Part shown: positions 12,884 through 38,895 of the stretch, piece after piece
How the letters are laid out: every line of letters starts with the position of its first letter
Position numbering within the stretch: position 1 is the first letter of the stretch
From: Micromonospora violae
Lineage (GTDB): Bacteria > Actinomycetota > Actinomycetes > Mycobacteriales > Micromonosporaceae
Direction: 5' to 3'
NCBI RefSeq assembly: GCF_004217135.1
Contig: NZ_SHKK01000001.1
Span: 3,162,001-3,226,000 of the forward strand
DNA length: 64,000 nt
Program-made: the position numbers and the translations under genes
The notes under the pieces: generated by a model
Seen by the model: only the letters and a program-made list of their open reading frames with translations
Database searches by the model: none
Told to the model about the DNA's origin: nothing

Positions 12884-12934
12884 TTAAACCACAGGTTGTC
12901 ACTCGGCGAGGCTGGAGGAGACGAAGGAGGGACC

Positions 12935-15687: not shown

Positions 15688-15791
15688 AAGACCGTCGCGT
15701 CGCGACGACGTACCCCCTGACCGTGGCAACCGAGGCAGCGTGCCCGGTTGTCGTCGTTCCCCTCGACCAACGCGAAGGAGACCCGCTATGA
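15687..15791 (+). pseudogene. Universal stress protein, C-terminal tail remnant
   Basis: In the frame ending at TGA 15791 the sequence reads VATTYPLTVATEAACPVVVV, the typical last strand of a UspA domain. The stop overlaps the ATG of the next nitroreductase (ATGA), the junction expected of a former usp-nitroreductase operon. A deletion joined pflA to this tail out of frame. Confidence 0.65.
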
Positions 15792-16750
15792 ACGGTTACC
15801 GCGACGCGGACCTGCAAGCGGCCGCCGAGGCCGGCATCCGCGCGCCGTCGATGCACAACAGCCAGCCGTGGCTGTTCCGACTGCGTGACGGCACCATCGA
15901 GGTCGTCGCCGACCGGGACCGGCAGCTCGCCGTCGCAGACCGGTCCGGCTGGGCGATCCGCCTGGCATGCGGCGCCGCCACCTACAACGCCCGCCTCGCC
16001 CTCGCCATGCGTAGCCGGCCCGCCGAGGTGCACACGCGCCCCCACTCCGTCGAATCCGCCGTGATCGCCCGACTCATCCCCGGCCCGGAAAGGCCACCGA
16101 CCTACACCGAGCAGGATCTGTACGCTGCCATCGGCCGCCGGCACAGCAACCGGGCGCCGTTTCGGCCCGATCCCGTGCCGGCCGACGCTCGCATCCGCCT
16201 CATCGACGCCGCGCGCAGCGAATCCGCGTGGCTCGACCTGCTGGTCGGCATGACCGCCCTGGCCGGCTTCGCTGAGATCGCCGGCAGCGCCGACCGGGTG
16301 CTGCGCCGCGACGCCCGGTACCAGGCCGAGCTGATCAGCTGGATCCAGGCCGACGACGCGTCCGACGGCGTTCCGGTAGGCGCTGGCGCACCCCTGCCCG
16401 AGCCGCACGACCTGCTGCCGCAACGGGCTTTCGGCAACCGGCGCCGCGCGCCCGGCCGTGAGCACGAACCCGAACCGCTGCTCGGCGTCCTCGGCGTGGC
16501 CGGCGACGGGCCGGCGGACCAGATCAACGCCGGCCAGGCCCTGCAGAAGGTCCTGCTCACCGCGACCGACGCCGGCCTGGCCACCTCAATGATCTCCCAA
16601 CCGATCGAGGTACCGGCCGCCCGCGACCAGCTACGGCGCTCCCTCGGCCGGACCGGATACCCGCAGCTCGCCCTGCGCATCGGCTACGGCACGCCCGGAC
16701 GACCCACCCCGCGACGGGACGTCGCCGACGTCGTCGTCCGTCAGAGCTGA
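15788..16750 (+). CDS. Acg-type nitroreductase family protein
   Basis: This 320-residue protein has IRAPSMHNSQPWLFRLRDG at the start, GRRHSNRAPF in the middle and INAGQALQKVLLTATDAGL, then TSMISQPIE near the end, the Acg/Rv2032 pattern. The ATG at 15788 has GAAGGAG 8 bases upstream. The N-terminus here is the normal one, unlike the paralogue at 5688. It is probably co-transcribed with pflB. Family members in mycobacteria are hypoxia- and NO-induced; the enzymatic role is uncertain. Confidence 0.82.
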   Translation: MNGYRDADLQAAAEAGIRAPSMHNSQPWLFRLRDGTIEVVADRDRQLAVADRSGWAIRLACGAATYNARLALAMRSRPAEVHTRPHSVESAVIARLIPGPERPPTYTEQDLYAAIGRRHSNRAPFRPDPVPADARIRLIDAARSESAWLDLLVGMTALAGFAEIAGSADRVLRRDARYQAELISWIQADDASDGVPVGAGAPLPEPHDLLPQRAFGNRRRAPGREHEPEPLLGVLGVAGDGPADQINAGQALQKVLLTATDAGLATSMISQPIEVPAARDQLRRSLGRTGYPQLALRIGYGTPGRPTPRRDVADVVVRQS

Positions 16751-22683: not shown

Positions 22684-25602
22684 GTGCGCGGGTATCGGAT
22701 CGGCATCCTCGGGCGGATCGAGGTGAGCATCGACGGGGTGGCCGTGTCGCTCGCCCCGCTGGAGCGGGCACTCGTCGCGAGCCTGGCGGCCCACCACGGA
22801 CGCATCGTCTCCGTCGACCGCCTGATCGACGGGCTCTGGCCGTACGATCCGCCCACGGGGGCGCGCAACCGGGTCCAGGCGGTCGTCGCCTCGGTCCGCC
22901 GCGGCGCGAAGCCGGAGCTGATCCTCACCCGCTCGCCCGGCTACCAGCTGAACCCCGTGGCGGTCGTCGACTCGGCGGAGTTCGCCGCCGAGGTAGGGGC
23001 CGCCGCGGCCACCGCCGATGCCCGCCGCGCCGTGGAGCTGCTCGACCGGGCGCTGGCGCGCTGGCGCGACGACGCGTTCGTCGACGTCGGGTCGCGGCTC
23101 GTCGAGTACGAGCGCGATCGGCTTCGTGAGCTGCGCGAGCACGCGACAGAGCTGCGCGCCGAGGCACTGCTCTCGCTCGGCCTGCACCGGGAACTCGTGC
23201 CGGAGCTGACCACGCTGGTCCGCGACCGACCCCTGCGGGAGCGGCTGCGCGGCCAGCTGATGGTGGCCCTGCACCGCAGCGGCCGACAGGCGGAGGCGCT
23301 CGCCGTGTACCGGGCCGGGGTCCGGGTGCTGGCGGAGGAGCACGGCATCGACCCGGGGCCGGAGCTGCGGCAACTGCACCGGGAGATCCTCGGCAGCGAG
23401 CAGGAGACGCCCCCGCGGGGGTGGGTGCGCCCCAACCAGCTTCCCGGAGTCACCGGTGACTTCGTCGGGCGGGACAAGGAGCTGGGGCTGCTGCTGTCGT
23501 TGCTGGGGCGCACCCCGACGGTCGCCGGGGTCGCCCAGGTGATCGTCGTGACCGGGCTCGCGGGAACGGGCAAGACCACGCTGGCGCTGCGCGCGGCCCA
23601 TGAGAGCCGGCACCGCTTCCCCGGGGGGTGCCTCTACGCGGACCTGCGCGGCAACACCCCGGAACCGGCGCAGCCCGGCACGGTGCTCGGCGCGTTCCTG
23701 CGCGCCCTCGGCGTGGCCGGCGAGGCCATCCCGGCGGCAGCCGAGGAGCGTGCGGCGCTGTACCGCTCCGTGCTCGCCGACCAGACCTTGCTGGTGATGT
23801 TGGACAGCGCGGCGGACGCGGCGCAGGTGCGTCCGCTGCTGCCGCCTGGCGGCAGCGCTGTCGTCACGAGCACGGGGGCGCTGCCGGGGCTGGCGGGCGC
23901 CGAGGTCGTCCCGCTCGACGTGCTGCCGATCGACGACGGCCTGGACCTGCTGGCCGGGCTCGCCGGCGGCGAACGAATCGACCGGGAGGCCGGGGCCGCC
24001 GCCGACGTCGTGGAGTTGTGCGGTCGCCTGCCGCTGGCGTTGCGAATCGCTGGCGTGCGGCTGGCCGAGCGGGAGGCGATGACCGTGGCGCGGTTGCGCG
24101 AGCGGCTGCGCGACGAGCGACGCCGCCTCGACGAACTCTCCCTCGACGGGCTCGACGTGCGCAGCAGCTTCACCGTCGGGTTCGAGCGGTTGCCGCAGCC
24201 CGCCGCGCGGCTGCTCGCGGTGCTCAGCCGCACGTCGCTGCGCAGCTTCGGCATGTGGGACGAGACCACGGAGCCGCTGCTGGAGCAGCTGTGCCGGGCC
24301 CACCTGCTGACCGACGACGCCAGCGGCCGGGTACGCATGCACGACCTGGTCAGGCTCGTCGCCCGGGAACGCACCGAGGTCCCCGTCGACGAGGTCGTCG
24401 CCTGGTACGCACGGCTGCACGCGTACGCCGAGCGGGCCGACGCGTCGCTGCCCTGCGGGGCTCTGCCGGTGGCCGACGCGGGGCCGGCGCTCGACGCCTG
24501 GGAGGCCGTCGACTGGTTCGAGGCGGAGCGGGAGAACCTGGTCGCGGCGGTGCAGGACCTGCTGCGGCTGGGCGCCGTCGACCTAGCGGGGCGGTTGGCC
24601 TGCACGATGGGCAACTTCGCGACGATGCGCAGCCAACACCTGCCCGAACTGGTCGACTGTCTGCGCGCCGTGCTCGACCACCATGCCGAGCTGCCGTCGG
24701 CGACCCGGATGTCGCTGCGGCTGCACCTGGGCACGGCGTACCGGTCGCTGAACCGGCACGCCGAAGCCGTGCCGCTGCTGCGCGCGGCGCAGCGGGCCGG
24801 CCGCGGGCGGTGGGTGGTGCACCGCCTCGTCGCCCTGCAGGGCTACTCGCTGTGCTGCCGCCACCTCGGTAGGTTGCGGGAGGCGGACGCCGCACTGCTG
24901 GTGATGGTGCGGCTGTGCGCCACGCACTGGCCGGTCGGCCGCGTCGGTGGGCACGTGCTGTTGGCCCTCGGCATGCAGCAGGGGCAGTACCGGCTCACCT
25001 CCCCGTTCGCCTTGGAGGCCTGCGCCGCGGCCCTGCGGGTCTTCGTCGACGACGGCGACCTGTGGGGCGAGGCGCTCGCGCGGGAGACCATCGGGCTGCT
25101 GCACCGGCACGCCGAGCAGTGGCCGCCAGCCGTGGAGCAGCTTCGGCAGGCGGTGGCCGCCGCGCGCCGGCTCGGCGACCGGATGAGCATGACCACGGCC
25201 GAGCAGGCGCTGGCCGCGACGCACCTCGCGGCCGGCGACGGCGAGGCGGCACGGCGGCTGCTGCGGCGTACGGTGCTGGCGTTCCACGAGCTGCGTCACG
25301 AGTGGGGCGAGGCGATCTCCCGGCGGCTGCTCGGCAAGGCGCACCTCGAGGAGGGCGACGCGGACCGGGCGGTGGTGGAGTTGGAGAGCTCGGTGGCGAT
25401 GCTGCGCGGCGTCGGGCAGCCGTTCCCGCTGGCGAACTCGCTGCACCTGCTCGCGCGGGCGCAGGCCACCCTCGGCAGGCACGACCGGGCCGTCGCGCTG
25501 GGCGAGGAGGCGCTGCACATCTTCGAGCACTTCGACTCCGCGTACGCCGACGACCTGCGCGAATCGCTGACGCGTTGGCGGAGCGCAGCCGGCGCGCAGT
25601 AG
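22684..25602 (+). CDS. AfsR/SARP-family regulator with NB-ARC and TPR domains
   Basis: The 972-residue protein has an OmpR-like winged helix (about 1-80, DRLIDGLWPYDPPTGARNRV), a bacterial transcriptional activator domain (about 90-235, ending VLAEEHGIDPGPELRQLHRE), an NB-ARC/STAND ATPase with P-loop GLAGTGKTTLAL near 291, and a C-terminal TPR superhelix from about 650. Such proteins activate secondary-metabolite clusters and bind heptameric direct repeats. The GTG at 22684 begins exactly at the domain. The peptide gene starts 65 bases after the stop, so this regulator probably controls the peptide cassette. Confidence 0.9.
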   Translation: MRGYRIGILGRIEVSIDGVAVSLAPLERALVASLAAHHGRIVSVDRLIDGLWPYDPPTGARNRVQAVVASVRRGAKPELILTRSPGYQLNPVAVVDSAEFAAEVGAAAATADARRAVELLDRALARWRDDAFVDVGSRLVEYERDRLRELREHATELRAEALLSLGLHRELVPELTTLVRDRPLRERLRGQLMVALHRSGRQAEALAVYRAGVRVLAEEHGIDPGPELRQLHREILGSEQETPPRGWVRPNQLPGVTGDFVGRDKELGLLLSLLGRTPTVAGVAQVIVVTGLAGTGKTTLALRAAHESRHRFPGGCLYADLRGNTPEPAQPGTVLGAFLRALGVAGEAIPAAAEERAALYRSVLADQTLLVMLDSAADAAQVRPLLPPGGSAVVTSTGALPGLAGAEVVPLDVLPIDDGLDLLAGLAGGERIDREAGAAADVVELCGRLPLALRIAGVRLAEREAMTVARLRERLRDERRRLDELSLDGLDVRSSFTVGFERLPQPAARLLAVLSRTSLRSFGMWDETTEPLLEQLCRAHLLTDDASGRVRMHDLVRLVARERTEVPVDEVVAWYARLHAYAERADASLPCGALPVADAGPALDAWEAVDWFEAERENLVAAVQDLLRLGAVDLAGRLACTMGNFATMRSQHLPELVDCLRAVLDHHAELPSATRMSLRLHLGTAYRSLNRHAEAVPLLRAAQRAGRGRWVVHRLVALQGYSLCCRHLGRLREADAALLVMVRLCATHWPVGRVGGHVLLALGMQQGQYRLTSPFALEACAAALRVFVDDGDLWGEALARETIGLLHRHAEQWPPAVEQLRQAVAAARRLGDRMSMTTAEQALAATHLAAGDGEAARRLLRRTVLAFHELRHEWGEAISRRLLGKAHLEEGDADRAVVELESSVAMLRGVGQPFPLANSLHLLARAQATLGRHDRAVALGEEALHIFEHFDSAYADDLRESLTRWRSAAGAQ

Positions 25603-25667
25603 GAGCGCAGGGCGCGCGCAGCGGCACCCAGCACAGTGATGGCAGTCACCCACCAAGGAGGTCTGCC

Positions 25668-25904
25668 ATGACCAAGCTCATCAACCGCGTCGGCGACGCG
25701 ATGCTCAGCAAGGTGCTCGGCCGCGAGGTGGCCGGCGCCTGCGTGCCGGAGCACGGCCAGTCGTGCTGCGCGGTGTCCAACGGCTACTGCTCGGGCGGTT
25801 CGTACTTCCGCTACTACCGGCGGAGCACCCTGTCCTGCACCGGCGTGTGCTCGGTCACGACGTCGTCGCCGATCTGCTACACCAAGAAGGTCGGCGCCTG
25901 CTGA
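25668..25904 (+). CDS. Small cysteine-rich peptide precursor, eight cysteines
   Basis: The 78-residue product starts at ATG 25668 with AAGGAGGT 5 bases before it, the strongest ribosome site in the region. Residues 1-24 form an amphipathic, cysteine-free leader ending VAGA, an A-x-A signal-peptidase-like site. The remaining 54 residues hold eight cysteines (25, 33, 34, 41, 57, 61, 70, 78), enough for four disulfides, with Ser, Thr, Tyr and Gly between them and a terminal Cys. No family is recognised with confidence; the size and cysteine count recall fulvocin-C-like bacteriocins. Genes for a thioredoxin, an exporter, a signal peptidase and a MauE-like protein follow, so I infer an exported, disulfide-bonded peptide. 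Confidence 0.75.
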   Translation: MTKLINRVGDAMLSKVLGREVAGACVPEHGQSCCAVSNGYCSGGSYFRYYRRSTLSCTGVCSVTTSSPICYTKKVGAC

Positions 25905-25918
25905 CCTGGCTCATCCTC

Positions 25919-25945
25919 GGGGGCCGCGCCGTCGGCGCGGCCCCC
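25919..25945 (+). terminator. Hairpin between the peptide gene and its maturation genes
   Basis: A perfect 12-base stem (GGGGGCCGCGCC) with a 3-base loop (GTC) begins 15 bases after the peptide stop. A partial terminator here would give much more precursor than processing enzyme, as in many bacteriocin operons. It could also stabilise the precursor mRNA. Confidence 0.65.
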
Positions 25946-25974
25946 ACCCCCCGCTGACTCGCTGAGGAGTTTCC

Positions 25975-26457
25975 ATGCCGGGTTTCGCCTACGCCGCCAT
26001 CGCCGTGATCGGCGCTGTCGCCGTGCTCAACCTCGTCCTGACCCTGGCCCTCGCCCGGCGGCTCCGGGAGACGCAGACCGCCACCGCCCACGACGGCGGG
26101 GCCGCCCCCGAGGTGCTGCCCGCCCCGGGCCTGGAGGTCACCGGCTTCCCGCACGTCGACCTGACCGCCGGTCGGCGCACGGTGGTCATGCTGACCCCCA
26201 CCTGTCCACCGTGCCAGACCATCCTGGACACCCTCACCGCGGACGCCCGGCGCTACCGCCACGACACCTTCGTGTTCATGATCGGCATGCCGGAGGACAC
26301 GGTGGAGATGGCGCCCCGCCTGGCCGACTTCGACACGGCGACCATCAACGAGGACCAGGCCGAGAAGGAGTTCGGGGTCAAGGGCTTCCCCGCCGTGCTG
26401 TCGGTCGTCGACGGCGTCGTCGTCACCTCCAGCCACCAGCTACCGGTCCTGGCCTGA
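25975..26457 (+). CDS. Membrane-anchored thioredoxin-like (TlpA/MauD-like) protein
   Basis: The 160-residue protein has one N-terminal membrane segment (AYAAIAVIGAVAVLNLVLTL), a linker, and a thioredoxin-fold domain with the active site TPTCPPCQTIL and the cis-proline loop VKGFPAVLSV. The topology puts the CPPC site outside the membrane. In mau clusters MauD plays this role in disulfide formation of the cysteine-rich small subunit. It is followed after 3 bases by the transporter gene, and a MauE-like partner lies 2 kb further on. Likely role: oxidising or isomerising disulfides in the exported peptide. Confidence 0.8.
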   Translation: MPGFAYAAIAVIGAVAVLNLVLTLALARRLRETQTATAHDGGAAPEVLPAPGLEVTGFPHVDLTAGRRTVVMLTPTCPPCQTILDTLTADARRYRHDTFVFMIGMPEDTVEMAPRLADFDTATINEDQAEKEFGVKGFPAVLSVVDGVVVTSSHQLPVLA

Positions 26458-26460
26458 GAC

Positions 26461-28239
26461 GTGGCCACGCTGCGAGCCGCCCTGCGACTGGGCTGCGCGG
26501 ACCGCAGGGCGCTCGCCGCCACGGTCGCCCTCGTCGTCATCGGCGCGGCGCCCCCGATCGGCGTCGCGTGGTTCACCAAGCTGCTGTTTGACGAGGTCGG
26601 CGGGGGCCGCTCGGCCGACCCGTCGACCGCCACCTGGTACGCCGTGGCGATCGCCGTCCTGGGCGCGCTGGCGGCGATCGCCAGCCGGGTGTCCGGATAC
26701 TTCACCACGGCCCTGCAGAACGCGATCACGATCGCCGCCGACGTGCGGCTGTACCGGAAACTGAACACCTTCGTCGGGCTGGGCCCGTTCGAGCAGCCGG
26801 CCCTGCGCGACCGGCTGGCGCTGGCCCAGCAGGCCGCCACCCAGGCGCCGTACGTGGTCGTCATGTTCGCGGTCGACGCGGCCCAGAACGTCGTCACCAT
26901 CGGCGGCTTCGCCGTGATCCTGACGTCCCTCTGGCCGCCGGCCGGTCTGCTCCTGCTCGCCGTGGCGGTGCCCGACTTCCTCATCCAACTGCGACTGTCC
27001 CGGCGGACCGCGCGGGCCGTGGAGGAAAGCGCCAGCCTGTTCCGGGCCCGGTTCCTGTTCCAGACCGTGCTGACCGACCTGCGCGCCGCCCGGGAGGTGC
27101 GCCTCTACCACCTCGGCCGGTTCTTCCACGACCGGCTCATCCGCGCGGTGCGCTCGGCCGCCGGGATCGAGCTGGCCGCCGCCCGGCACACCACGACGGT
27201 GCAGGCGTGCTGGGCGTTGGCCGGCGCCGCGGTGACCCTCACCGCGACGGTGTTCGCGGTGAACGCCACGGTCCGTGGCCGGCTCAGCCTCGGCGACCTC
27301 ACCCTCCTGCTGGCCGCGTTCGCCGCGGCGCACAGCGGCCTGGCCGGCATCGCCGCCCAGCTCGGCGAGGCCGGCGCCGCCATGCGGCTGTTCCGGCACT
27401 ACGTCGCCGTCCTCGACAGCCCCACCGACCTGGTCGACGGGACCCTGCCGGCGCCGCCGCTGCGCACCGCGATCAGGTTCGAGGACGTGTGGTTCCGCTA
27501 CGACGAGGACGGCCCCTGGGTCCTGCGGGGCGTCGACCTCACGATCACCGCCGGGCAGGCCGTCGGGCTCGTCGGACTCAACGGGGCCGGCAAGAGCACC
27601 CTGGTCAAGCTGCTCTGCCGGTTCTACGACCCGGACCGCGGCCGGATCACGTGGGACGGGGTGGACCTGCGCGAGCTGCGGATCGAGACGGTGCGCCGGC
27701 GGATGGGCGCGGTGTTCCAGGACTTCATGTGCTACGACCTCACCGCCGAGGAGAACGTCGGCATCGGCCGACTGCCGCACACGACCGAGCAGGTCGCCGA
27801 GGCCGCCGCGCGCGCCGAGATCCACGACCGCCTCCGCGCCCTCCCCCACGGGTACGCCACGCTGCTCAGCCGCACCTTCGCCGGCCAGGACGGCGAGCCC
27901 GGCGTGACGCTCTCCGGCGGGCAGTGGCAGCGGGTCGCGCTCGCCCGGTCCCTGATGCGCGCCGACGCCGACCTGCTCATCCTGGACGAACCCAGCTCCG
28001 GGCTCGACGCGGACGCCGAGACCCGCGTGCACGCCTCGCTGACCCGGATCCGCCACGGCCGCACCGGGCTGCTGATCTCCCACCGGCTCAGCACCCTGCG
28101 CGACGCGCGGCGCATCGTCGTGCTGGACGCCGGGCGCGTCGTCGAGTCGGGCACGCACGACGAGCTGATGGCGGCCGACGGTGAGTACGCCCGGCTCTTC
28201 CGCCTGCAGGCGGACGGCTATCAGCTGGCGGCGACATGA
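26461..28239 (+). CDS. ABC transporter with fused membrane and ATPase domains
   Basis: The 592-residue half-transporter has about six membrane segments in residues 1-330 and a nucleotide-binding domain with Walker A LNGAGKST near 371, Q-loop FQDFMCYD, signature LSGGQWQRVALARSL near 484 and Walker B LLILDEPSSGLD. There is no N-terminal C39 peptidase domain, so leader removal must be done by another enzyme; the next gene encodes a signal peptidase. GTG 26461 follows the upstream stop by 3 bases. Likely exporter of the cysteine-rich peptide, acting as a homodimer. Confidence 0.85.
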   Translation: MATLRAALRLGCADRRALAATVALVVIGAAPPIGVAWFTKLLFDEVGGGRSADPSTATWYAVAIAVLGALAAIASRVSGYFTTALQNAITIAADVRLYRKLNTFVGLGPFEQPALRDRLALAQQAATQAPYVVVMFAVDAAQNVVTIGGFAVILTSLWPPAGLLLLAVAVPDFLIQLRLSRRTARAVEESASLFRARFLFQTVLTDLRAAREVRLYHLGRFFHDRLIRAVRSAAGIELAAARHTTTVQACWALAGAAVTLTATVFAVNATVRGRLSLGDLTLLLAAFAAAHSGLAGIAAQLGEAGAAMRLFRHYVAVLDSPTDLVDGTLPAPPLRTAIRFEDVWFRYDEDGPWVLRGVDLTITAGQAVGLVGLNGAGKSTLVKLLCRFYDPDRGRITWDGVDLRELRIETVRRRMGAVFQDFMCYDLTAEENVGIGRLPHTTEQVAEAAARAEIHDRLRALPHGYATLLSRTFAGQDGEPGVTLSGGQWQRVALARSLMRADADLLILDEPSSGLDADAETRVHASLTRIRHGRTGLLISHRLSTLRDARRIVVLDAGRVVESGTHDELMAADGEYARLFRLQADGYQLAAT

Positions 28240-28547
28240 CCGGCTGGCTGCGCCGCCGCTGGCGCCTGGTGGTGGTGAGCGGGCAGAGCATGGCGCCGAC
28301 GCTGCGGGACGGCGACCGGCTCATCGTCCGCGTCGGCCGGGCGCCCGCCGTCGGTGACCTCGTCGTCTTCCGGGCCCGCGACGTCGTCCCCGCCGCGGAC
28401 CTGACGTGGATGGTCAAACGGGTGCACCGGATCGAACCGGACGGCGCCGTCACGGTACGGGGCGACAACACCCACAGCCAGGACTCGCGGCATTTCGGCG
28501 CGGTGCCACCCGAGGCGGTCCTCGGCGTGGTCAGAGGGAGGCGATGA
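28236..28547 (+). CDS. Minimal S26-family signal peptidase
   Basis: This 103-residue protein holds the S26 catalytic serine in VVSGQSMAPTLRDGDRLIV, the lysine in WMVKRVHRI, and the GDNTHSQDSRHFG box. It is much shorter than housekeeping signal peptidase I and has at most one weak membrane segment at the N-terminus (WRLVVV). Its ATG overlaps the ABC gene stop by 4 bases. The A-x-A motif just before the first cysteine of the peptide at 25668 is a fitting substrate, so it is probably the dedicated leader peptidase. Confidence 0.82.
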   Translation: MTGWLRRRWRLVVVSGQSMAPTLRDGDRLIVRVGRAPAVGDLVVFRARDVVPAADLTWMVKRVHRIEPDGAVTVRGDNTHSQDSRHFGAVPPEAVLGVVRGRR

Positions 28548-28550
28548 CAG

Positions 28551-29051
28551 ATGTACGTCGAGATCGGGTGCCGGGTGCTGCTCGGCACGGTCCTGCTGGC
28601 GGCGGCGGTCGGGAAGGTCTCCGGCCGCGACGCCTACCGCGAGTTCACGCGCTCCGTGCGCGACATGGGCTACCGGCCCGCCGGCCCGCTCGCCGCGGCC
28701 GTGGTCGCCACCGAGTTCACCGCCGTGGTCCTGCTGGCGGTGTTCCCGCTGGCCGGGTTCCTCGCCTCGGGCGCCCTGCTGCTCACCTTCACCGCCGCCA
28801 TCGTCGCCAACCTGCGGCGCGGCGGCGGCACCTGCCGCTGCTTCGGCCGCACCACCGCGCCCCTGGGCCGGCACCACGTGTGGCGCAACGCGTTCCTCGT
28901 CGCCTGTGCCGTCGCCGGCGCGCTCGCGCCGGCCGGTGCGGTACGCCCCGGGGAGGCGGTCCTGGCCGGTGCCGCCGCGCTGGCCGTCGGCGTGCTGGTC
29001 GTCATGCTGGACGAGCTGCGCTACCTGTTCGGCGCCGCCAGCCGCACGTGA
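28551..29051 (+). CDS. MauE/DoxX-type redox membrane protein
   Basis: The 166-residue protein has four membrane segments (CRVLLGTVLLAAAVGKV, then AAAVVATEFTAVVLLAVF, ASGALLLTFTAAIV and a C-terminal pair). Between segments 3 and 4 it carries GGTCRCFGR, the C-x-C-F-G site of MauE proteins. In methylamine dehydrogenase maturation MauE and MauD act together on cysteines of the small subunit. Here it would pass electrons from the thioredoxin-like protein to the membrane quinone pool, or the reverse. It is the last gene of the cassette and is followed by a terminator. Confidence 0.8.
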   Translation: MYVEIGCRVLLGTVLLAAAVGKVSGRDAYREFTRSVRDMGYRPAGPLAAAVVATEFTAVVLLAVFPLAGFLASGALLLTFTAAIVANLRRGGGTCRCFGRTTAPLGRHHVWRNAFLVACAVAGALAPAGAVRPGEAVLAGAAALAVGVLVVMLDELRYLFGAASRT

Positions 29052-29483: not shown

Positions 29484-31445
29484 GTGAAGATCGTCAGGGA
29501 GGCGCCGGCCGGGGTCGTCCGGTTCGCCGCGGAACTGCAAGCCCTGTACGACGGTGCCCGGCTACCGGGACGCCAGGTGCTGATCAGAGCGGCGGACGAG
29601 CAAGGGATCACGCTCAACGAGAAGACGCTGAGCGACTGGTTCCGCGGCAGGTCGGTGCCCCGCAGTGAGCCTGCCATCAAGTTTCTGATCGAGTACCTGC
29701 AGCCGATCGCTGAGCGCAGGGCTCAGCGCCCGCAACGCCTGTGGCCCTGGTGGCGGGAATTGCTTCAGGCCGCCCGGGCGGCGAATCGGCCGCAGGAGGC
29801 GGGACGGCCGCGGAGCCAGGTACTGGACACGCCCGTCCGACCGGCTGGCGCTGCGCCCTGGCCGCTGGTGCGTGACCGCACAGCCGTGGACATGGGTGTC
29901 CACCCGGCCGTGTTCCTGCCGCCATCGACGTCGCCGCTGACGCTATGGATGCAGGGCCAGCGCGAGCCGCAGCTGCCTCCGACCTATGTCACGCGGGAGC
30001 ACGACGACGCGTTGCTGGGCACCTTGCGCGCGGCGGTGCAGCGAGAATCGGGTGCGGTCCTCGTGGTGGGGCGGTCGTGCACCGGCAAGTCACGCTCGGC
30101 GTGGGAGGCGGTGTCGCGAGAACTAGGCGACTGGTTTCTTGTGGATCTGCGCGACCGACGCCAGATCCAACGACTGAACGACGGGGACGAGCCGACTGGA
30201 GACTGCGTCCTATGGCTGGATAATCTGGATCTCACGGACAACCCTCCTCAGCTCGCCGAGACCGCCCTCGCGGTGCTCGACCAGCGCGGAGCGGTCGGAC
30301 GGCGCATCGTTGTTGTCACCATGTGGCATCAGCCGGAGACCGAGTCGCCCCGGCAACTCCGGGAACTCGCCAGAAGGACTGGCGCTGTGGTGCACGTCAG
30401 TGAGGACTGGACCGGGGCGGAACTCGATGAAGCTGCCCGTCTCGCCGCCGCCGACCGGGTGCTGGCCGCCGCACTCCAGCAGACCGGCTTCAGCCCGTCG
30501 CAGATACTCGCGGGTGCCAAGTGGGCGCTCGGGCTGTGGCGTAACGCGCATGAGCGGCAGACGAGTGCCGTGCTGACCGCCGCGATCGATCTGGCTCGGC
30601 TCGGCATCGGCGTGCCGGGCGGCGCGCCGCTGACCCGTGACCTGCTAACGAGTTGTTCGGCGTGTTACCTCACACGGCCGCCGAGCACCGACGACTGGTT
30701 CGAGCCAGCGTTACGGAAGGCGACAACTCCGCTGGAAGACGCCGTGTGGGCGCTGGCGCCGCCGCTGCCCGGCGCTACCGGGTACCGGCTGTTCGATCCA
30801 CTGCTGGATTACGCCCGCCTCCAGCGGCACTACGAGCCGCTCCCCGCAGGGGTGTGGACCGCGCTGGCAGAGGCCGACTTCGGCCGGGAAGAATTCAGCC
30901 GACTGGCGCAAGAGGCCCGCGATCGGCTCCTTTTCCCGCAGGCGTCGGCTTTCGCGCAGCGGGCGAAACAGGCTGAGTCCCGGCTGTCTGTGCCGCCACG
31001 CCAACCGCCCCGGGTTCTGCCGCCGCCTCCTCGAACACCTCCGTCGCCGCCAACGCCGACGCTGAAGTTCAACCTCAGCAGCCCGTCCCGGAACCGCGCG
31101 GACGCCCTACTCGAAGCCGACGACCTTGAGGGACTGCTGCACCACGCAATCAACTCGAACGACACCTACGTCCGGCGGCGGCTGGCCATGCTCTACGAAC
31201 GGCGGGGCGATCGACGGGCCCTGCGAGAGTTGGCGACGTTCAGCCGGCGGGGTGCCCGGCACTGGGCGGCAATGCTGGCCCGCGAAGAAGACCCTGCTGA
31301 GCTGCTACGAGCGGTGGTGTGCGGCGACGGCTTCGCCCTCCGGGCGTTGCGAGACTGGCCGGTCGCCGGCCTCGACGATACGCAACGCGAAACCATCCTG
31401 CGCTTCGGCTTGACCCCGGAAGGCCGCCCGATACAGCGTAGGTAG
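29484..31445 (+). CDS. HTH-containing P-loop NTPase of unknown function
   Basis: The 653-residue protein begins with a helical region resembling an XRE-type DNA-binding fold (AADEQGITLNEKTLSDWFRG, about 5-70). A P-loop VVGRSCTGKSRSAWEAV lies near 195 and a Walker B-like CVLWLDNLDL near 243. Residues about 505-530 are a proline-rich linker, and the C-terminus has short helical repeats (DTYVRRRLAMLYERRGD, then RRALRELA) like degenerate TPR/SEL1. The layout is like STAND-type signal NTPases found with conflict or signalling systems, but no effector domain is visible. GTG 29484 is the start; no second gene of a pair is evident. Confidence 0.6.
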   Translation: MKIVREAPAGVVRFAAELQALYDGARLPGRQVLIRAADEQGITLNEKTLSDWFRGRSVPRSEPAIKFLIEYLQPIAERRAQRPQRLWPWWRELLQAARAANRPQEAGRPRSQVLDTPVRPAGAAPWPLVRDRTAVDMGVHPAVFLPPSTSPLTLWMQGQREPQLPPTYVTREHDDALLGTLRAAVQRESGAVLVVGRSCTGKSRSAWEAVSRELGDWFLVDLRDRRQIQRLNDGDEPTGDCVLWLDNLDLTDNPPQLAETALAVLDQRGAVGRRIVVVTMWHQPETESPRQLRELARRTGAVVHVSEDWTGAELDEAARLAAADRVLAAALQQTGFSPSQILAGAKWALGLWRNAHERQTSAVLTAAIDLARLGIGVPGGAPLTRDLLTSCSACYLTRPPSTDDWFEPALRKATTPLEDAVWALAPPLPGATGYRLFDPLLDYARLQRHYEPLPAGVWTALAEADFGREEFSRLAQEARDRLLFPQASAFAQRAKQAESRLSVPPRQPPRVLPPPPRTPPSPPTPTLKFNLSSPSRNRADALLEADDLEGLLHHAINSNDTYVRRRLAMLYERRGDRRALRELATFSRRGARHWAAMLAREEDPAELLRAVVCGDGFALRALRDWPVAGLDDTQRETILRFGLTPEGRPIQRR

Positions 31446-32056: not shown

Positions 32057-32701
32057 CGCACCCTCATGGGCATGAGCGGACGTCGTCGGCCTGTGAAGCG
32101 GAGCCACGGTTCTGACGCTTCCGGGCACGCCGAAGAGTTCACCAAGCAGGAATCCCTGGTCAGAGGGTTGCAGGTGAGATTCGCCTCTCAGGTAACGGGA
32201 TCCCGGCCGACGCCAGCACGGCAGGGCCCAGCGTGTCTTCGTGCTCGCCCTGGTCGTTCAGAAATGGTTCAGCCCGCCCGGCCACAACCCACCGCAGCTG
32301 GGTCGGCGAGGCGCCTGAACGTACTCCTCGTCGCCACGATCGACACGCAGGCGCCACCCGGGCAGACATCGCAACCACCGTGACCATGGACATCCTCGCC
32401 GGCCGTCATCTGCCCACCGCCGCCCACGCCGCCAGCCTGACCACCGTCCTCTCCTGCGAACCGGACACCCTGCGCCACCTCATCAGCGCGACCAGCAGCA
32501 GCACCGCCCTCGATGAAGACGAATACGACGAGCATCGCGGGCGGGGCGAGGCCGGCGTCCAAGGTGGATCCAAGGTCCGTTCACGGTCGACTCGGCACGG
32601 TGGTCCCAACGCCGAAACCGCCGGTGCTGGCTGCAGAGGCCGACCGGCAACGACGGCACCGACACCGTCGCCACCACGGCGACACGGACCTGGGAGGCTC
32701 C
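32057..32701. other. Intergenic region with a possible regulator remnant
   Basis: In 645 bases the only protein-like stretch is a plus-strand frame around 32385-32530 (ILAGRHLPTAAHAASLTTVL and RHLISATSSSTALDEDEYDE), which could be the tail of a small XRE-type regulator. No complete gene is recognised. Confidence 0.35.
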
Positions 32702-33073
32702 ATGAAGCTACGGACCGTCCTGATGCCCGCCGCGGCCGTCGCGGCGACCCTCGTCATGGCTACCCCGGCGAGCGCCGCGCCGGCGTACGAGACGAACTAC
32801 GCCGTACGTGGCACGCCGCCGTCGTCCGGCCTGTCCTGCAAGCCGGTCAGCGGGGTGATGCAGGCCTGCTTCGAGGCCTACGGCGACAAGTGGTGGTTGC
32901 GCCGGGACACCAACTCCTACAGCGGCGTGGGCATCGAGTGGGAGAACTACCGCAGCGGCTCGCTGTACCGATACGGCGAGTGCGTCAGCTACCTCCCGGT
33001 CGGCACCTGGGGGGTCTGCAACAAGGACTACTACGAGGACAGCAGCCTCTCCTGGTGGCCGTTCGCGGTCTAG
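32702..33073 (+). CDS. Small secreted cysteine-containing protein
   Basis: The 123-residue protein has a clear signal peptide (MKLRTVLMPAAAVAATLVMA, then TPASA and cleavage before APAYETN). The mature part is rich in Tyr, Trp and Ser and has four cysteines (in GLSCKPV, MQACFEA, GECVSY and GVCNKD), suggesting two disulfides. GGGAGG lies 5 bases before ATG 32702. No family is recognised. It converges on the second SARP gene with a shared terminator. Confidence 0.65.
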   Translation: MKLRTVLMPAAAVAATLVMATPASAAPAYETNYAVRGTPPSSGLSCKPVSGVMQACFEAYGDKWWLRRDTNSYSGVGIEWENYRSGSLYRYGECVSYLPVGTWGVCNKDYYEDSSLSWWPFAV

Positions 33074-33106: not shown

Positions 33107-33147
33107 GCGCCGGTGCCCGGACGGCCTGTCCGTCCGGGCACCGGCGC
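33107..33147. terminator. Bidirectional terminator with an 18-base stem
   Basis: An 18-base perfect inverted repeat beginning GCGCCGGTGCCCGG, with a 5-base loop, sits between the converging secreted-protein and SARP genes. Its end touches the SARP stop codon. Confidence 0.75.
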
Positions 33148-35939
33148 TACGGTGCCTCGCCGAGCCGGTCGAGGTCGCCTCGGACCTGCTCGACAGCCGG
33201 ATGGTCGAGCTGCTCCAGCAGGCTCAGCGCCGCCTCCAGGCAGCCCCGGGCGCCGTCGGGATCGCCGGCCGCCTGACGGGTCTCGGCCAGATGGCGCAGG
33301 ATGTCTGCCTCGTTGAACCCTTCGTGGAACCCGCGGACCAGCTCCAGCGCGCGTTCGTAGCATCGGACGGCCTGCGCGTACTCCCCGAGGTGATGGTGGG
33401 CGAAGCCGAGACTGTCCCACGCGCCGGCCTCCGCGTTCGTGTCGCCGATCTCCTGGTGGACCGCAACCGCCTGGGTGCAGAAGGCCAGCGCCCGCCGGTG
33501 CTCGCCGAGCATCACGTGTAGCCAGCCGAGGTTGTTCAGCGCCATCGCCTGCCCGGGCCGATGGTCGAGGTGCTGGTAGAGCGTCAGGGCCTGCTGGTTG
33601 AAGTCGAGTGCCTCGGCCCAGTGGCCACGCTGGTGGCAGATCCAGCCCAGCCCTCGCGCGATGTCCGCCTGTCTGCCCTCGTCGCCCAGCTCACCGAAGA
33701 GCTCGAGCGCGCGCCGCTGATTGTCGTACGCGTCGTCGAGCAGCCCCAGTTGGGTGCCGGCGAGGCCCAGGCTGCGGTGGGCGTGTGCCTGCCGCAGGGG
33801 GTCGTGGAGTCGCCGGGCCGCATCCAGTGCCAACCGCTGGGTCTGCGCCCAGTCCCGCCAGTGACCCTGGTAGTCGAGGAAGGTCTCCAGCGTCCACGCC
33901 AGCTGCCAGGTGTGCTGGTCGAGCCCCTGCGTGGCGGTGTGCTCCACGGCGGCGAGCAGCATCGGGTGCTCGCGTGCGAACCAGGCCAGCGCCTCGTCCT
34001 GGCCGGTGAACTCCTCCGCTGTCTCCTCGGTCGACGCGGGATCCGCGACCACCGGCTCCCGTTGCGGGTCGAGCACCCGCGCGGCCCGCCGCGCGGTGTC
34101 CAGGTAGTGCTCGACGAGCCGGCGCAGGGCGGCGGCGAGCAGCTCCGGCGGCTGGTCGCGGTGCGCGCGGTCGGCGGCGTACAGGCGTACCAGGTCGTGG
34201 AGGCGGTAACGCTCCGGTCGGTGCTGCTGGACCAGGTGGTGGTCCTGCAACGTCTGCAACAGCAGTCGGGTCCGGGACGGCGACAGATCGGCCAGGCGCG
34301 CTGCCGCGGCGAGCCCGATCTCCGGCCCGGGAGCCAGCGCCAGCAGGAGGAACAGCCGGTTCGGTGCGGCGGCGAGGCGGTGCTGGGAAGCGGCGAACAC
34401 CGCCCGGAGGTCGGCGGTCAGGTCGCCGGCGTTCAGCGCGTCGAGCCGGGTCGCCTCCTCGCGCAGTTCCCTGGTCACCGCGTCGAGCGGCAGGTCCGGC
34501 TGCATCACCGCCCGTGCGGCGATGATGCTCAGCGCCAGCGGCAGCCCGCCACAGCGCCGGACGATCTCCCGCAGACTGTCCGCCTCGGCGTCCGTCCGGC
34601 CTCGGCTGAGCAGCCGGGCCAGCAGCTCGTGGGCTTCCTCGCCGTCGAGGACGTCCAACCCTAACCACCGCGCGCCGTGGTTGGTGATCAGCCCGCCGAG
34701 CCGTACCCGGCTGGTGATCAGCACGACACAGCCGGGACCACCCGGTAGCAGCGGCACCACCTGCTCCATGCCGTGCGCGTTGTCGAGCAGGATCAGCATC
34801 TTCCGGCCGGCTACCAGGCTGCGGTAGAGCGCGGCGCGGGCGTCCAGGTCCGCCGGGACCGAGGCGGCCGGCAGCCGCAACCCGTCGAGGAACCCGCGCA
34901 GCGCGACCTCGGGGGCCATCGGGCCGGCCGGGTCGAAGCCGCGCAGGTTCACGTACAGCTGGCCGTCCGGGAAGCTGGTCAGGTTGTCGTGGGCCCAACG
35001 CAGCGCGAGAGAGGTCTTGCCGACGCCGCCGGGCCCGCCGACGGCGCACATCGCCACCGTCTGGTCGGCACCGTCGCGGACGGACAGCACCCGGGTCAGC
35101 TCCGCCAGTTCGCGGGCGCGGCCAGCGAAGTAGGGCGGCGGCGCAGGTAGTTGGCGGGGAACAGTCGCCTCACCGGCCGCGATCGCACCGGCTGGCTCCC
35201 GCAGCTCCGTGTCGCCCTTGAGGACGTCCGTGTGCAGCCGTTGCAGCTCCGGCGTCGGGTCGACACCGAGGGAGTCGGCGAGACGCCACCGCAGCCGGTC
35301 GTACTGGTCGAGCGCTTCCGCCTGTAGACCGGAGCGGCTCAGCGCGAGCATCAGTTGACCGACGAGCCGCTCGTCGAGTGGGTGATCCTCGACGCGCGCC
35401 ATCAGATAGGGCGCCAGCGCGGCGTGCTGACCGTGGCGCAGAGCCAGGTCCGTCCGGTCCCGGTCGACGGCGACCCGGTCGCGCTCCCAGGCGGTCCGCA
35501 GGCTGTTCGCCCAGGGGGTGTCCAGCGGGGTGAGCGGGTCGCCGCGCCAGAGGTTCAGCGACTCCTCGAAGATTCGTAGGGCCTGACCGGCGTCCGGCGT
35601 CGCCCGGGCCAGCCCCGCCAGTTGGTAAAACCGGTGCAGGTCCACCGAGGCGGCGTCGGCGGCGAGGAGGTAGCCACCGGACTGGCGGATGATCTGGATG
35701 TCGTCGGCAAGCGTGAGGCAGGTGCGCAGCCTGGACAGGTAGCTGTAGAGCGTGGCCTGGGCCCCCGCCGGGGCGAGCTCGCCCCACACCCGGTTGATGA
35801 GTTGTCCGACCTGGACGACCTGGTTGACATCGACGAGCAGCGCGGCCAGAACGCAGCGCTGACGGACGTGCCCCACGTCGAGCGGCTGGCCGTCCACCCG
35901 TGCCTGGAGATCACCGAGCAGGCCGAATTCTGTGGGCAT
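33147..35939 (-). CDS. Second AfsR/SARP-family regulator with NB-ARC and TPR domains
   Basis: The 930-residue protein has a winged helix (about 1-90, MPTEFGLLGDLQARVDGQPL), an activator domain ending DSLGVDPTPELQRLHTDVL near 240, an NB-ARC ATPase with P-loop GGPGGVGKTSLALRW near 300 and the RNBS-like ILLDNAHGMEQVVPLL, and a TPR tail (LNNLGWLHVMLGEHRRAL). ATG 35939 is preferred over GTG 35945 because GAGG is better spaced from it. It is the AfsR type rather than the shorter SARP type. Its target is not evident from adjacency; the small secreted protein at 32702 and the peptide cassette are candidates. Confidence 0.88.
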   Translation of the reverse strand: MPTEFGLLGDLQARVDGQPLDVGHVRQRCVLAALLVDVNQVVQVGQLINRVWGELAPAGAQATLYSYLSRLRTCLTLADDIQIIRQSGGYLLAADAASVDLHRFYQLAGLARATPDAGQALRIFEESLNLWRGDPLTPLDTPWANSLRTAWERDRVAVDRDRTDLALRHGQHAALAPYLMARVEDHPLDERLVGQLMLALSRSGLQAEALDQYDRLRWRLADSLGVDPTPELQRLHTDVLKGDTELREPAGAIAAGEATVPRQLPAPPPYFAGRARELAELTRVLSVRDGADQTVAMCAVGGPGGVGKTSLALRWAHDNLTSFPDGQLYVNLRGFDPAGPMAPEVALRGFLDGLRLPAASVPADLDARAALYRSLVAGRKMLILLDNAHGMEQVVPLLPGGPGCVVLITSRVRLGGLITNHGARWLGLDVLDGEEAHELLARLLSRGRTDAEADSLREIVRRCGGLPLALSIIAARAVMQPDLPLDAVTRELREEATRLDALNAGDLTADLRAVFAASQHRLAAAPNRLFLLLALAPGPEIGLAAAARLADLSPSRTRLLLQTLQDHHLVQQHRPERYRLHDLVRLYAADRAHRDQPPELLAAALRRLVEHYLDTARRAARVLDPQREPVVADPASTEETAEEFTGQDEALAWFAREHPMLLAAVEHTATQGLDQHTWQLAWTLETFLDYQGHWRDWAQTQRLALDAARRLHDPLRQAHAHRSLGLAGTQLGLLDDAYDNQRRALELFGELGDEGRQADIARGLGWICHQRGHWAEALDFNQQALTLYQHLDHRPGQAMALNNLGWLHVMLGEHRRALAFCTQAVAVHQEIGDTNAEAGAWDSLGFAHHHLGEYAQAVRCYERALELVRGFHEGFNEADILRHLAETRQAAGDPDGARGCLEAALSLLEQLDHPAVEQVRGDLDRLGEAP

Positions 35940-36323
35940 CAACACCGTTCCTCACCCGGACGCAGCGTCCGGAGGCCGCGTCAGCCGGAGCGATTCAAGC
36001 TTGTTCAAGGATTGTCCAAGGTTGATGAGCTACGCGGCGTCCCCGGTCCACGGCTCGGGACGTGGGTTGACCCCGTCAGGGTGTCTGGTCAGGCCGATGG
36101 TCGTGGCGGGACGGGTGAGGTCGGCGGGGGTGGGGCCGGCGCGGAGGATGGCGGTGAGCAGGGTGAGCCGCACCTCGGTTCGGACGGCCCCTGGACCGGC
36201 CCGGGCCCACGCGGTACCACGATCGAGGTCGACGTGCGGGGTCACCCGGCAGGCATCGGCCAGGCGCCCTACCGCGACGGAACCGACTTCGTCTCCACCC
36301 CCTTCTGTCAGTGACGCTGGGTC
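35940..36323. other. Intergenic region without recognised genes
   Basis: These 384 bases lie between the SARP start and an IS256 remnant. I see no gene, no strong hairpin and no repeat. Confidence 0.4.
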
Positions 36324-37321: not shown

Positions 37322-37729
37322 TCAGGGGACGGGGATGAGGTCGACAAGGAGCATTTGCACCCGGGCGCGGATCTCATCGCGGATCGGGCGGACGGCATCG
37401 ACACCCTTGCCGGCGGGGTCGTCGAGCTTCCAGTCCTCGTAGCGCTTGCCAGGGAAGACCGGGCAGGTGTCGCCGCAGCCCATGGTCACGATGACGTCGG
37501 AGGACTCCGCGGTCGCGTACTCCAAGAGTTTGGGGGTCTGGTCGGTGATGTCGATGCCGACCTCGCGCATGGCCTGCACGGCGGCGGGGTTGATCGTCTC
37601 GGCCGGCGCGGAGCCGGCCGAGCGAACCTCGACGGTGTCGCCGGCGAGGTGGCGCAGCCAGCCGGCGGCCATCTGCGAACGGCCAGCGTTGTGGACGCAA
37701 ACGAAAAGGACGCTGGGTTTGTCACTCAC
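37322..37729 (-). CDS. arsC: Arsenate reductase, low-molecular-weight phosphatase type
   Basis: The 135-residue protein has the P-loop CVHNAGRSQM (C-x5-R), the second cysteine pair in VTMGCGDTCPVFPGKRYEDW and the D-P loop DDPAG. This is the thioredoxin- or mycothiol-coupled ArsC family that reduces As(V) to As(III). GTG 37729 begins exactly at the domain; the open frame continues upstream but overlaps acr3. It is the last gene of the minus-strand ars operon, 17 bases after acr3. Confidence 0.9.
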   Translation of the reverse strand: MSDKPSVLFVCVHNAGRSQMAAGWLRHLAGDTVEVRSAGSAPAETINPAAVQAMREVGIDITDQTPKLLEYATAESSDVIVTMGCGDTCPVFPGKRYEDWKLDDPAGKGVDAVRPIRDEIRARVQMLLVDLIPVP

Positions 37730-37746
37730 GGCGGGTGCCTTCCGGG

Positions 37747-38895
37747 TTACGAGGTTGCGGAGTTCGTGGAGGTGAAGAAGCGATGGCGCGCCCACAGCGA
37801 GACGTAGACCAGTCCGACCAGGACGGGCACCTCGATCAACGGGCCGACGACCCCGGCTAGGGCTTGGCCGGAGGTGACTCCGAAGGTGCCGATCGCCACG
37901 GCGATGGCGAGTTCGAAGTTGTTCCCGGCAGCGGTGAACGCCAGCGTGGTGGTGCGTTGGTAGCCGAGGCCGATGGCGCGTCCGAGGGCATAGGAGCCGG
38001 CCCACATGAGGGCGAAGTACACAAGCAGGGGCAGGGCGATGCGGACGACGTCCAGGGGTCGGCTGGTGATGGCGTCGCCTTGCAGGGCGAACAGGATCAC
38101 GATCGTGAACAGCAGCCCGTAGAGGGCGGCCGGGCCGATGCGGGGCAGGAAGCGGGCCTCGTACCAGGCGCGGCCCTTGGCGCGTTCGCCGAGGCGGCGG
38201 GTGAGGTAGCCGGCGAGCAGTGGGATGCCGAGGAAGATGAGCACGTTCCCGGCGATGTCCCACGCTGACACGTTGAGCTCAGCCCCGGAGAGCCCCAGCC
38301 ACTGGGGGAGCACGGACAGGTAGAACCAGCCGAGCACGCCGAAGGCGACGACCTGGAAGACCGAGTTGAGGGCGACCAGGACGGCGGCGGCCTCCCGATC
38401 ACCACAGGCGAGGTCGTTCCAAATGATGACCATGGCGATGCACCGGGCCAGGCCGACGATGATCAGCCCGGTGCGGTAGGCGGGTTGGTCGGCCAGGAAG
38501 ATCCAGGCCAGGGCGAACATTACGGCGGGGCCGACGAGCCAGTTGAGGACCAGCGAGGAGATCAGCAGCCGGCGGTCGCCGGTGACGGTGTCGAGCCGGT
38601 CGTAGCGGACCTTCGCCAACACCGGGTACATCATGATCAGCAGGCCGATCGCGATGGGCAGGGAGATCCCGCCGATCTGCACCGCGTCCAGGGCGCTATT
38701 CAGGCCCGGGATGAGGCGGCCCAGGAAGAGTCCGACGATCATGGCCAACCCGATCCACACCGGGAGGAACTGGTCGAGTCGGGACAGGCGGCCGACGACG
38801 GCGTTCTCGCCGGGGTCGGTGTGGAGGGTGGTGCGGGTGCTCACGGGCACTCCCGTCGGTTCTCGGTCGCTGGTGGTGTGGGTCGGGTCTGTCAT
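37747..38895 (-). CDS. acr3: Acr3-type arsenite efflux permease
   Basis: The 382-residue protein has ten predicted membrane segments. It keeps the family cysteine in GLARCIAMVIIWNDLA and the glutamate in AGNNFELAIAVAIGTFG, both needed for arsenite transport in studied Acr3 proteins. The ATG at 38895 overlaps the upstream arsC stop by 4 bases (ATGA). It exports As(III) by proton antiport. Residues 1-40 form a short cytosolic tail. Confidence 0.92.
   Translation of the reverse strand: MTDPTHTTSDREPTGVPVSTRTTLHTDPGENAVVGRLSRLDQFLPVWIGLAMIVGLFLGRLIPGLNSALDAVQIGGISLPIAIGLLIMMYPVLAKVRYDRLDTVTGDRRLLISSLVLNWLVGPAVMFALAWIFLADQPAYRTGLIIVGLARCIAMVIIWNDLACGDREAAAVLVALNSVFQVVAFGVLGWFYLSVLPQWLGLSGAELNVSAWDIAGNVLIFLGIPLLAGYLTRRLGERAKGRAWYEARFLPRIGPAALYGLLFTIVILFALQGDAITSRPLDVVRIALPLLVYFALMWAGSYALGRAIGLGYQRTTTLAFTAAGNNFELAIAVAIGTFGVTSGQALAGVVGPLIEVPVLVGLVYVSLWARHRFFTSTNSATS

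Follow-up and report, generated by a model that had tools for sequence, protein, structure and literature searches.

Cysteine-rich leader peptides encoded beside thioredoxin, MauE and S26 peptidase genes: a cassette of Micromonospora violae and its actinomycete relatives

A FAMILY OF CYSTEINE-RICH PRECURSORS

The 64,000-nucleotide stretch of the Micromonospora violae genome analyzed here (the window; NCBI RefSeq assembly GCF_004217135.1, contig NZ_SHKK01000001.1, positions 3,162,001 to 3,226,000) contains at positions 25668-29051 five genes on one strand, encoding in this order a cysteine-rich peptide precursor, a membrane-anchored thioredoxin-like protein (Trx), an ABC exporter, an S26 leader peptidase and a MauE family membrane protein, and preceded by a gene for an AfsR-type SARP regulator. 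An original prediction, made from the letters of the window, had proposed a cassette for an exported peptide. The cassette is real, and it turned out to be one member of a large family, in which the gene content recurs, a common leader precedes a variable core and the number of core cysteines is almost always even. As to the whole pathway proposed below, with maturation of the precursor at the inner face of the membrane, release by the ABC exporter, control by the SARP and an antibacterial product, we consider the chances about evenly balanced.

The precursor gene (25668-25904, plus strand) encodes 78 residues with eight cysteines, and the A-x-A that had been predicted to end the leader right before the first cysteine is found there as AGA. 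The leader comprises 24 codons (25668-25739, plus strand). If cleavage at AGA|C is assumed, the core takes up the remaining 54 residues with all eight cysteines (25740-25904 including the stop codon, plus strand), and its predicted monoisotopic mass is 5717.45 Da with four disulfides and 5725.51 Da in the reduced form. The precursor has no Pfam or NCBIfam match above the cut-off, ten diverse precursors likewise had none in NCBIfam, and a profile of the precursor orthologues retrieved nothing credible from the PDB (best E 0.68).

Small cysteine-rich open reading frames (ORFs) with a similar leader were seen in the DNA adjoining distant Trx genes. A hidden Markov model (HMM) of the leader, 19 columns long and built from 22 such ORFs, was run over 98 loci, which are the best-scoring Trx matches from searches at the family and class level (L001-L003, L034 and L041 excluded); they were picked by Trx alone, and lower rates are possible among weaker relatives. 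Of the 91 matches scoring at least 10 bits, 90 fell on small cysteine-rich ORFs, and in the window the model gave 19.9 bits on the precursor and 6.2 bits on the next sequence. In the alignment of 54 precursors the leader is conserved (D, P and A-x-A), and the core keeps little besides the cysteines and is hypervariable between loci. The A-x-A lies no more than 10 residues ahead of the first cysteine in 129 of 135 pooled precursors. Compared with the GG or GA site that closes the leaders of double-glycine/C39 bacteriocins, A-x-A is the pattern of the family, and in the clade of the window the leader ends in AGA. As in ribosomally synthesized and post-translationally modified peptides (RiPPs), a conserved leader and a variable core are thus encoded beside genes for processing and export. 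The leaders do not have the hydrophobic core (h-region) of Sec-type signals in 10-residue Kyte-Doolittle windows (n = 91; median best value 1.23, above 2.0 in two). The cores, with a median of 41 residues from the first cysteine, are rich in tyrosine and glycine (n = 135), and their net charge is positive in 113 cases (median +2). Cysteine makes up 18% of the core residues, histidine 1.1%, aspartate 2.3% and glutamate 2.0%.

The number of core cysteines is even in all 94 precursors of the first set (8 in 45, 6 in 37, 10 in nine and 4 in three), into which 94 of 104 leader matches of at least 5 bits had passed by having at least four cysteines and a tail of no more than 80 residues; parity was never a selection criterion. 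As a control, 830 further small ORFs with 4-10 cysteines were taken from these loci; they are mostly chance reading frames, and 525 of them were even. Average-linkage clustering at >60, 50, and 40% identity gave 68, 55, and 41 clusters, respectively, and all of them were even. In a later set, 22 of 25 precursors flagged as new were even, or 20 of 23 without the window's own precursor and one known orthologue, eight of these 20 being close 10-cysteine relatives. Pooling the distinct tails that score at least 9.5 bits gives 133 even ones out of 135, with 50 cores having six cysteines and 20 having ten. This parity is strong evidence from sequence which supports complete pairing of the cysteines as disulfides, at least as the end state. 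Disulfides had been predicted as the only modification implied, and no other modification enzyme recurs among the loci (ORFs of at least 100 residues); chemistry of the lanthionine, azole or radical-SAM type was rejected for lack of a recurrent enzyme there.

GENE CONTENT AND DISTRIBUTION OF THE CASSETTES

Within 4.5 kb of Trx, the 98 loci contain a precursor in 83 cases (73 on the same strand), an ABC gene in 94, an S26 gene in 87 and a MauE gene in 80. Precursor, ABC and S26 genes occur together in 76 loci, and in 66 of them MauE is also present. The MauE partner foreseen in the original prediction is therefore frequent, but not universal. The linkage to a SARP also holds: in the window the regulator lies 65 nt upstream of the precursor gene, and a SARP-like gene is found within 4.5 kb of Trx in 68 loci, on the same strand in 28. 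An all-against-all comparison of the neighboring ORFs of at least 100 residues, with L036-L044 omitted, gave no further gene family in more than seven loci.

In the opposite direction, 23 of 61 Micromonospora genomes had a match to the precursor profile; M. violae has two, both at cassettes. Each of the 30 loci obtained in this way, from 31 places listed, carries one or more of the Trx, ABC, S26 and MauE genes within a flank of approximately 1.5 kb, several of these loci having already been used in building the profile. Trx was found in 23 of them, ABC in 26, MauE and SARP in 15 each and S26 in 13. Conservation of the small ORF beside these genes, named beforehand as the point on which the prediction would stand or fall, was thus seen in both directions.

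At the family level, 105 of 300 genomes had any Trx match at E ≤ 1e-3, many of these probably being ordinary thioredoxins. Among 394 genomes of the class, 60 had a match to the Trx profile at E ≤ 1e-8, and 26, M. violae included, one of at least 86 bits; across the phylum, three of 296 genomes, again with M. violae, reached 1e-15. On these counts the distribution of the cassette is patchy and seems concentrated in filamentous actinomycetes. A search of 5.8 billion proteins returned 17 matches, the named ones called hypothetical or uncharacterized protein and including Streptomyces, Nonomuraea and Catellatospora. The plasmid search with the Trx of a relative gave 28 records, 25 of them from Streptomyces. 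In Streptomyces clavuligerus, a species kept in laboratories, the cassette consists of two 6-cysteine precursors followed by MauE, Trx, ABC and S26 genes; if cleavage follows TAHA, the predicted masses of their cores with three disulfides are 4913.22 and 4797.03 Da.

Some cassettes depart from the arrangement in the window. A second, diverged cassette lies in the same M. violae genome (L102, G000:C1:6877500-6892500), with Trx, ABC, MauE and SARP genes, an S26 gene that is on the opposite strand, and an 8-cysteine precursor with the same type of leader. Three adjoining precursors with different cores are found in one cassette at L084 and at L101, and two Trx genes per cassette at L100 and L129 (genomes G317 and G660).

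THE PROTEINS OF THE WINDOW CASSETTE

The predicted five-gene content on a single strand was confirmed, and the motifs could be located. The SARP (22684-25602, plus strand; 972 residues) consists of BTAD, an AAA/NB-ARC-like ATPase and TPRs. A Shine-Dalgarno-like AAGGAGG (25655-25661, plus strand) precedes the precursor gene. Trx (25975-26457, plus strand; 160 residues) carries a single helix at its N-terminus, next to it ARRLRE, and CPPC at 26203-26214. As a single sequence it has no Pfam match above the cut-off; the profile of its family matches thioredoxin and ResA structures (E 1e-11 to 1e-9), and both the CxxC and the cis-Pro position are found in the thioredoxin-like profile. The ABC exporter (26461-28239, plus strand; 592 residues) is a fusion of transmembrane and nucleotide-binding domains. 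As predicted, it has no C39 peptidase domain by Pfam and NCBIfam profiles, and TIGR01193 gives 163 bits vs. a cut-off of 524.

The S26 protein (28236-28547, plus strand) has 103 residues, as predicted, and shows the catalytic motifs: Ser18 (28287-28289) in SMAPT, Lys61 (28416-28418) in MVKRVH and a GDN box. It scores 54.1 bits with PF10502 (cut-off 22.9) and has no membrane helix in the clade of the window. Its best model is TIGR02754, the nickel superoxide dismutase (SOD) maturation protease, at 53.7 bits and under the cut-off of 63.25; signal peptidase I (TIGR02227), the serine and lysine motifs of which are present, is passed marginally (47.9 bits vs. 47). The MauE protein (28551-29051, plus strand; 166 residues) passes PF07291 with 75.8 bits (cut-off 27), and the predicted CxCFG is found as CRCFG (28833-28847) in an arginine-rich loop.

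Genes 2-5 follow each other closely, neighbors either overlapping by 4 nt or standing 3 nt apart, and the gap between the precursor and Trx genes is 70 nt. A G+C hairpin of 12 bp lies in this gap (25919-25945, plus strand; z -3.3, no T run), and similar ones occur at related loci (z -3.7 at L002 and -1.6 at L003). It is possibly an attenuator or an mRNA stabilizer and may set the ratio of precursor to enzyme expression.

MEMBRANE TOPOLOGY AND THE PROPOSED PATHWAY

Lysine plus arginine residues are more numerous after the N-terminal helix of Trx than before it in 96 of 98 loci, with two ties. In MauE, mostly with five predicted helices, the side of the CxCFG has a median of 13 such residues vs. 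one on the opposite side, and has more of them in 78 of 79 proteins. This charge bias suggests that the Trx domain and the CxCFG loop are on the cytoplasmic face. Among 87 S26 proteins, 12 have no helix, those of the window clade included. At least two positive residues between the helix and the catalytic serine are found in 71 of 75 cassette S26 proteins and in none of the 19 housekeeping signal peptidases of the relatives. When the N-terminal flank was taken from the nearest start codon, the cassette S26 proteins scored 72 inward, two outward and one tie; with the longest start within 30 residues, the counts were 68, three and four. The S26 domain is thus probably cytoplasmic as well, a placement less independent of the method than those of Trx and MauE.

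Together with a leader that has no hydrophobic core, the charge bias suggests that the precursor, the redox pair and the peptidase meet at the cytoplasmic face. Sec-type export is unlikely, since the window S26 lacks a membrane helix and the leader an h-region. With the active sites of Trx, MauE and probably S26 inside, oxidation and leader removal are predicted to come before export, and in this respect the order implied in the original prediction, with maturation outside the membrane, is changed. In the proposed pathway the SARP would switch the operon on, and the amphipathic leader would direct the precursor to a maturation complex that is bound to the membrane on its inner side. There Trx would form or sort the disulfides of the core, MauE would recharge Trx, probably towards quinone, and the inward-facing S26 peptidase would cut at A-x-A. 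The dedicated ABC exporter would then release a compact, cationic and fully disulfide-bonded peptide, in the window one of 54 residues with four disulfides. An antibacterial peptide is the most likely product; an antimicrobial role is favored because the cores are cationic, rich in tyrosine and glycine and hypervariable, and because of the SARP control. The more far-reaching proposal, that an inward-facing Trx/MauE pair oxidizes the precursor and an inverted signal peptidase homologue cuts the A-x-A before ABC export, the whole being a widespread platform for conotoxin-style diversification, is possible but somewhat doubtful.

Several observations weigh against this pathway. The topology is read from one kind of evidence, charge bias (the positive-inside rule), and the S26 count depends on the rule for the N-terminal flank. 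When the flank was fixed at the 15 residues ahead of the helix, a rule that reads upstream of many cassette S26 starts, the cassette proteins scored 42 inward, 22 outward and 11 ties, and the housekeeping enzymes none, 18 and one; a separate count by this rule, keeping 25 housekeeping proteins instead of the 19 of the matched comparison, had 24 outward. L228 is not part of the signal peptidase control. Under the nearest-start and longest-start rules, the housekeeping enzymes were outward in only 8 or 11 of 19 cases, with 4 or 3 inward and 7 or 5 ties. Since the cytosol is reducing, oxidation at the inner face would need a strong local oxidant. Within 4.5 kb, MauE is missing in 18 of the 98 loci, S26 in 11 and a precursor match in 15, in eight of which a precursor is plausible by eye. 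Parity drops to 133 of 136 once a 9-cysteine precursor of 7.9 bits, under the 9.5-bit cut-off, is counted, and precursors with odd numbers exist, with 11 cysteines at L189 and with 7 and 9 in a neighboring pair at L196. AlphaFold gave a predicted local distance difference test score of 34 and a predicted template modeling score of 0.14 for the precursor (seven rows), so no fold is claimed. Within the clade, the ratio of nonsynonymous to synonymous substitution rates (dN/dS) is 0.86 for the precursor vs. 0.24-0.45 for the other five genes, and in a slightly different sequence set 0.89 for the leader and 1.02 for the core. This is no clear diversifying selection, and none is claimed because the precursor gene has a lower dS as well and the compared pairs are not independent.

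Among the odd-numbered cases, the single precursor of L189 is an unexplained exception to the parity; for the pair at L196, the idea that a disulfide links its two chains in the product is speculation.

ALTERNATIVE EXPLANATIONS

The order of events may also be the conventional one, in which export comes before any processing and the peptide meets Trx, MauE and S26 on the outer side of the membrane, with the disulfide end state unchanged. The outside is the normal site of action for disulfide enzymes and signal peptidases, ResA, an extracytoplasmic protein, is among the solved structures closest to Trx, and the outward S26 scores under the fixed 15-residue rule point in the same direction. The nearly uniform inward scores of Trx and MauE, the positively charged catalytic side of cassette but not housekeeping S26 proteins, the window S26 without a helix and the leaders without an h-region speak against export first, however, and make it distinctly unlikely. 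If Trx and MauE are indeed at the inner face, they could still be a reductase or holdase that keeps the precursor reduced until cleavage and export, the disulfides forming outside spontaneously or via general oxidases. Cytosol-facing thioredoxins usually work as reductants; this explanation fits the topology data equally well, and parity bears on the end state alone. On the other hand, a dedicated membrane partner such as MauE is not obviously required for cytosolic reduction, and a part in disulfide formation has been speculated for the MauE of mau clusters in the paper on decRiPPter (Kloosterman et al., 2020; PMC7794033). We regard a reducing role as unlikely, the direction of electron flow, oxidase or reductase, being the weakest step of the proposed pathway.

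Whatever the mechanism, the product could be a signaling or developmental peptide, for which the ATPase-TPR part of the neighboring SARP might be the sensor. A SARP with TPR domains adjoins the precursor in the clade, SARP-like genes are common near the related loci, and no recurring separate immunity gene was seen in the comparison of neighboring ORFs of at least 100 residues. Nevertheless, SARPs commonly control antibiotic clusters, immunity can come from the ABC exporter itself, and hypervariable, cationic and compact cores resemble interference peptides, so that signaling appears somewhat unlikely beside the antibacterial role. The high cysteine content would also suit a core binding metal as a metallophore or in the manner of a metallothionein, with no disulfides. 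Such binding is very improbable and was rejected on cysteine parity and composition: the cysteine numbers are even yet often not multiples of four (six and ten being common), histidine, aspartate and glutamate are scarce, and a redox pair is present in the cassette.

RELATION TO KNOWN SYSTEMS

In a full-text literature search, with most subscription journals outside its coverage, the decRiPPter study was the sole relevant paper among the matches listed. Its main text describes three candidate RiPP families of Streptomyces with mauE homologues, one of them also with mauD, each having a precursor of at least eight cysteines, and proposes a role of these genes in precursor modification; the strict filter demanded a transporter, a peptidase and a regulator (Kloosterman et al., 2020; PMC7794033). 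Because of this proposal, the basic idea of MauE and MauD acting on cysteine-rich precursors is already in print, as a prediction, and the same idea in the original prediction, a mau-like redox pair reused on a cysteine-rich precursor, is supported here. The decRiPPter candidates are likely to be of the same family as the cassette. The family described here extends beyond them to cores with 4, 6, and 10 cysteines and, besides Streptomyces, to Micromonospora, Nonomuraea and Catellatospora. The shared leader, cysteine parity, recurrent S26/ABC anatomy and inward topology were not noted in the text of that paper (PMC7794033).

The likeness to mau clusters is partial. The cassette MauE belongs to the same Pfam family, and six of 17 members of the Trx family show a weak likeness to MauD (best 1e-9), but the MauD model TIGR02661 (cut-off 188.6) has no match in the M. 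violae genome at E ≤ 1e-3. No methylamine dehydrogenase genes were among the scanned neighbors, in a scan that included no search aimed at them. The cassette S26 shares serine, lysine and GDN motifs with the nickel-SOD maturation protease and signal peptidase I, falling short of the former model and, unlike the housekeeping enzymes, being positively charged on the catalytic flank of the helix; a literature search on the nickel-SOD protease found nothing.

The sublancin-type operon encodes SunT (a C39 exporter), BdbA, the DsbB-like BdbB and a glycosyltransferase. Like the cassette, it has a precursor beside a thiol-disulfide oxidoreductase and an ABC exporter; unlike it, the cassette has an S26 peptidase and MauE and no glycosyltransferase. 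Actifensin, laterosporulin and other disulfide bacteriocins are, by description, small cationic disulfide-rich peptides as here.

Scattered hypothetical proteins of Streptomyces, Nonomuraea, Catellatospora and Micromonospora thereby unite into one recognizable peptide family, for which a simple search rule can be given: the leader profile, an even cysteine number and the Trx/ABC/S26/MauE genes. More than 100 distinct disulfide-rich sequences are on offer for antibiotic discovery, and a question of cell biology is raised, that is, whether disulfide making and signal peptidase-like cleavage are possible on the cytoplasmic side of the bacterial membrane.

SURROUNDINGS OF THE CASSETTE IN THE WINDOW

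A Pfam scan covered 25 ORFs from the 12.9-42 kb part of the window, 18 of them beyond the cassette on both sides. LanC and YcaO were not found among them. The original prediction that no lanthipeptide, radical-SAM or cyclodehydratase enzyme is present stands for the cassette but not for the rest of the window, as one radical-SAM gene with a nitroreductase-like C-terminal part (15233-16750, plus strand) lies 9 kb upstream. It is followed by genes for a universal stress protein and a GAF histidine kinase, and is probably the activase of the adjoining pyruvate-formate-lyase-like glycyl-radical gene (12896-15172, plus strand).

Downstream of the operon, a 653-residue protein (29484-31445, plus strand) has a faint AAA signal and no Pfam or NCBIfam match above the cut-off. 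A second AfsR-type SARP with NB-ARC and TPRs (33147-35945, minus strand) is located approximately 4 kb downstream and is adjoined by a secreted-looking ORF (32513-33073). Further on, genes for a low-molecular-weight phosphatase, an SBF-family transporter and an ArsR-type helix-turn-helix fused to a low-molecular-weight phosphatase domain (37322-40248, minus strand) look, from their Pfam domains, like an arsenic resistance set.

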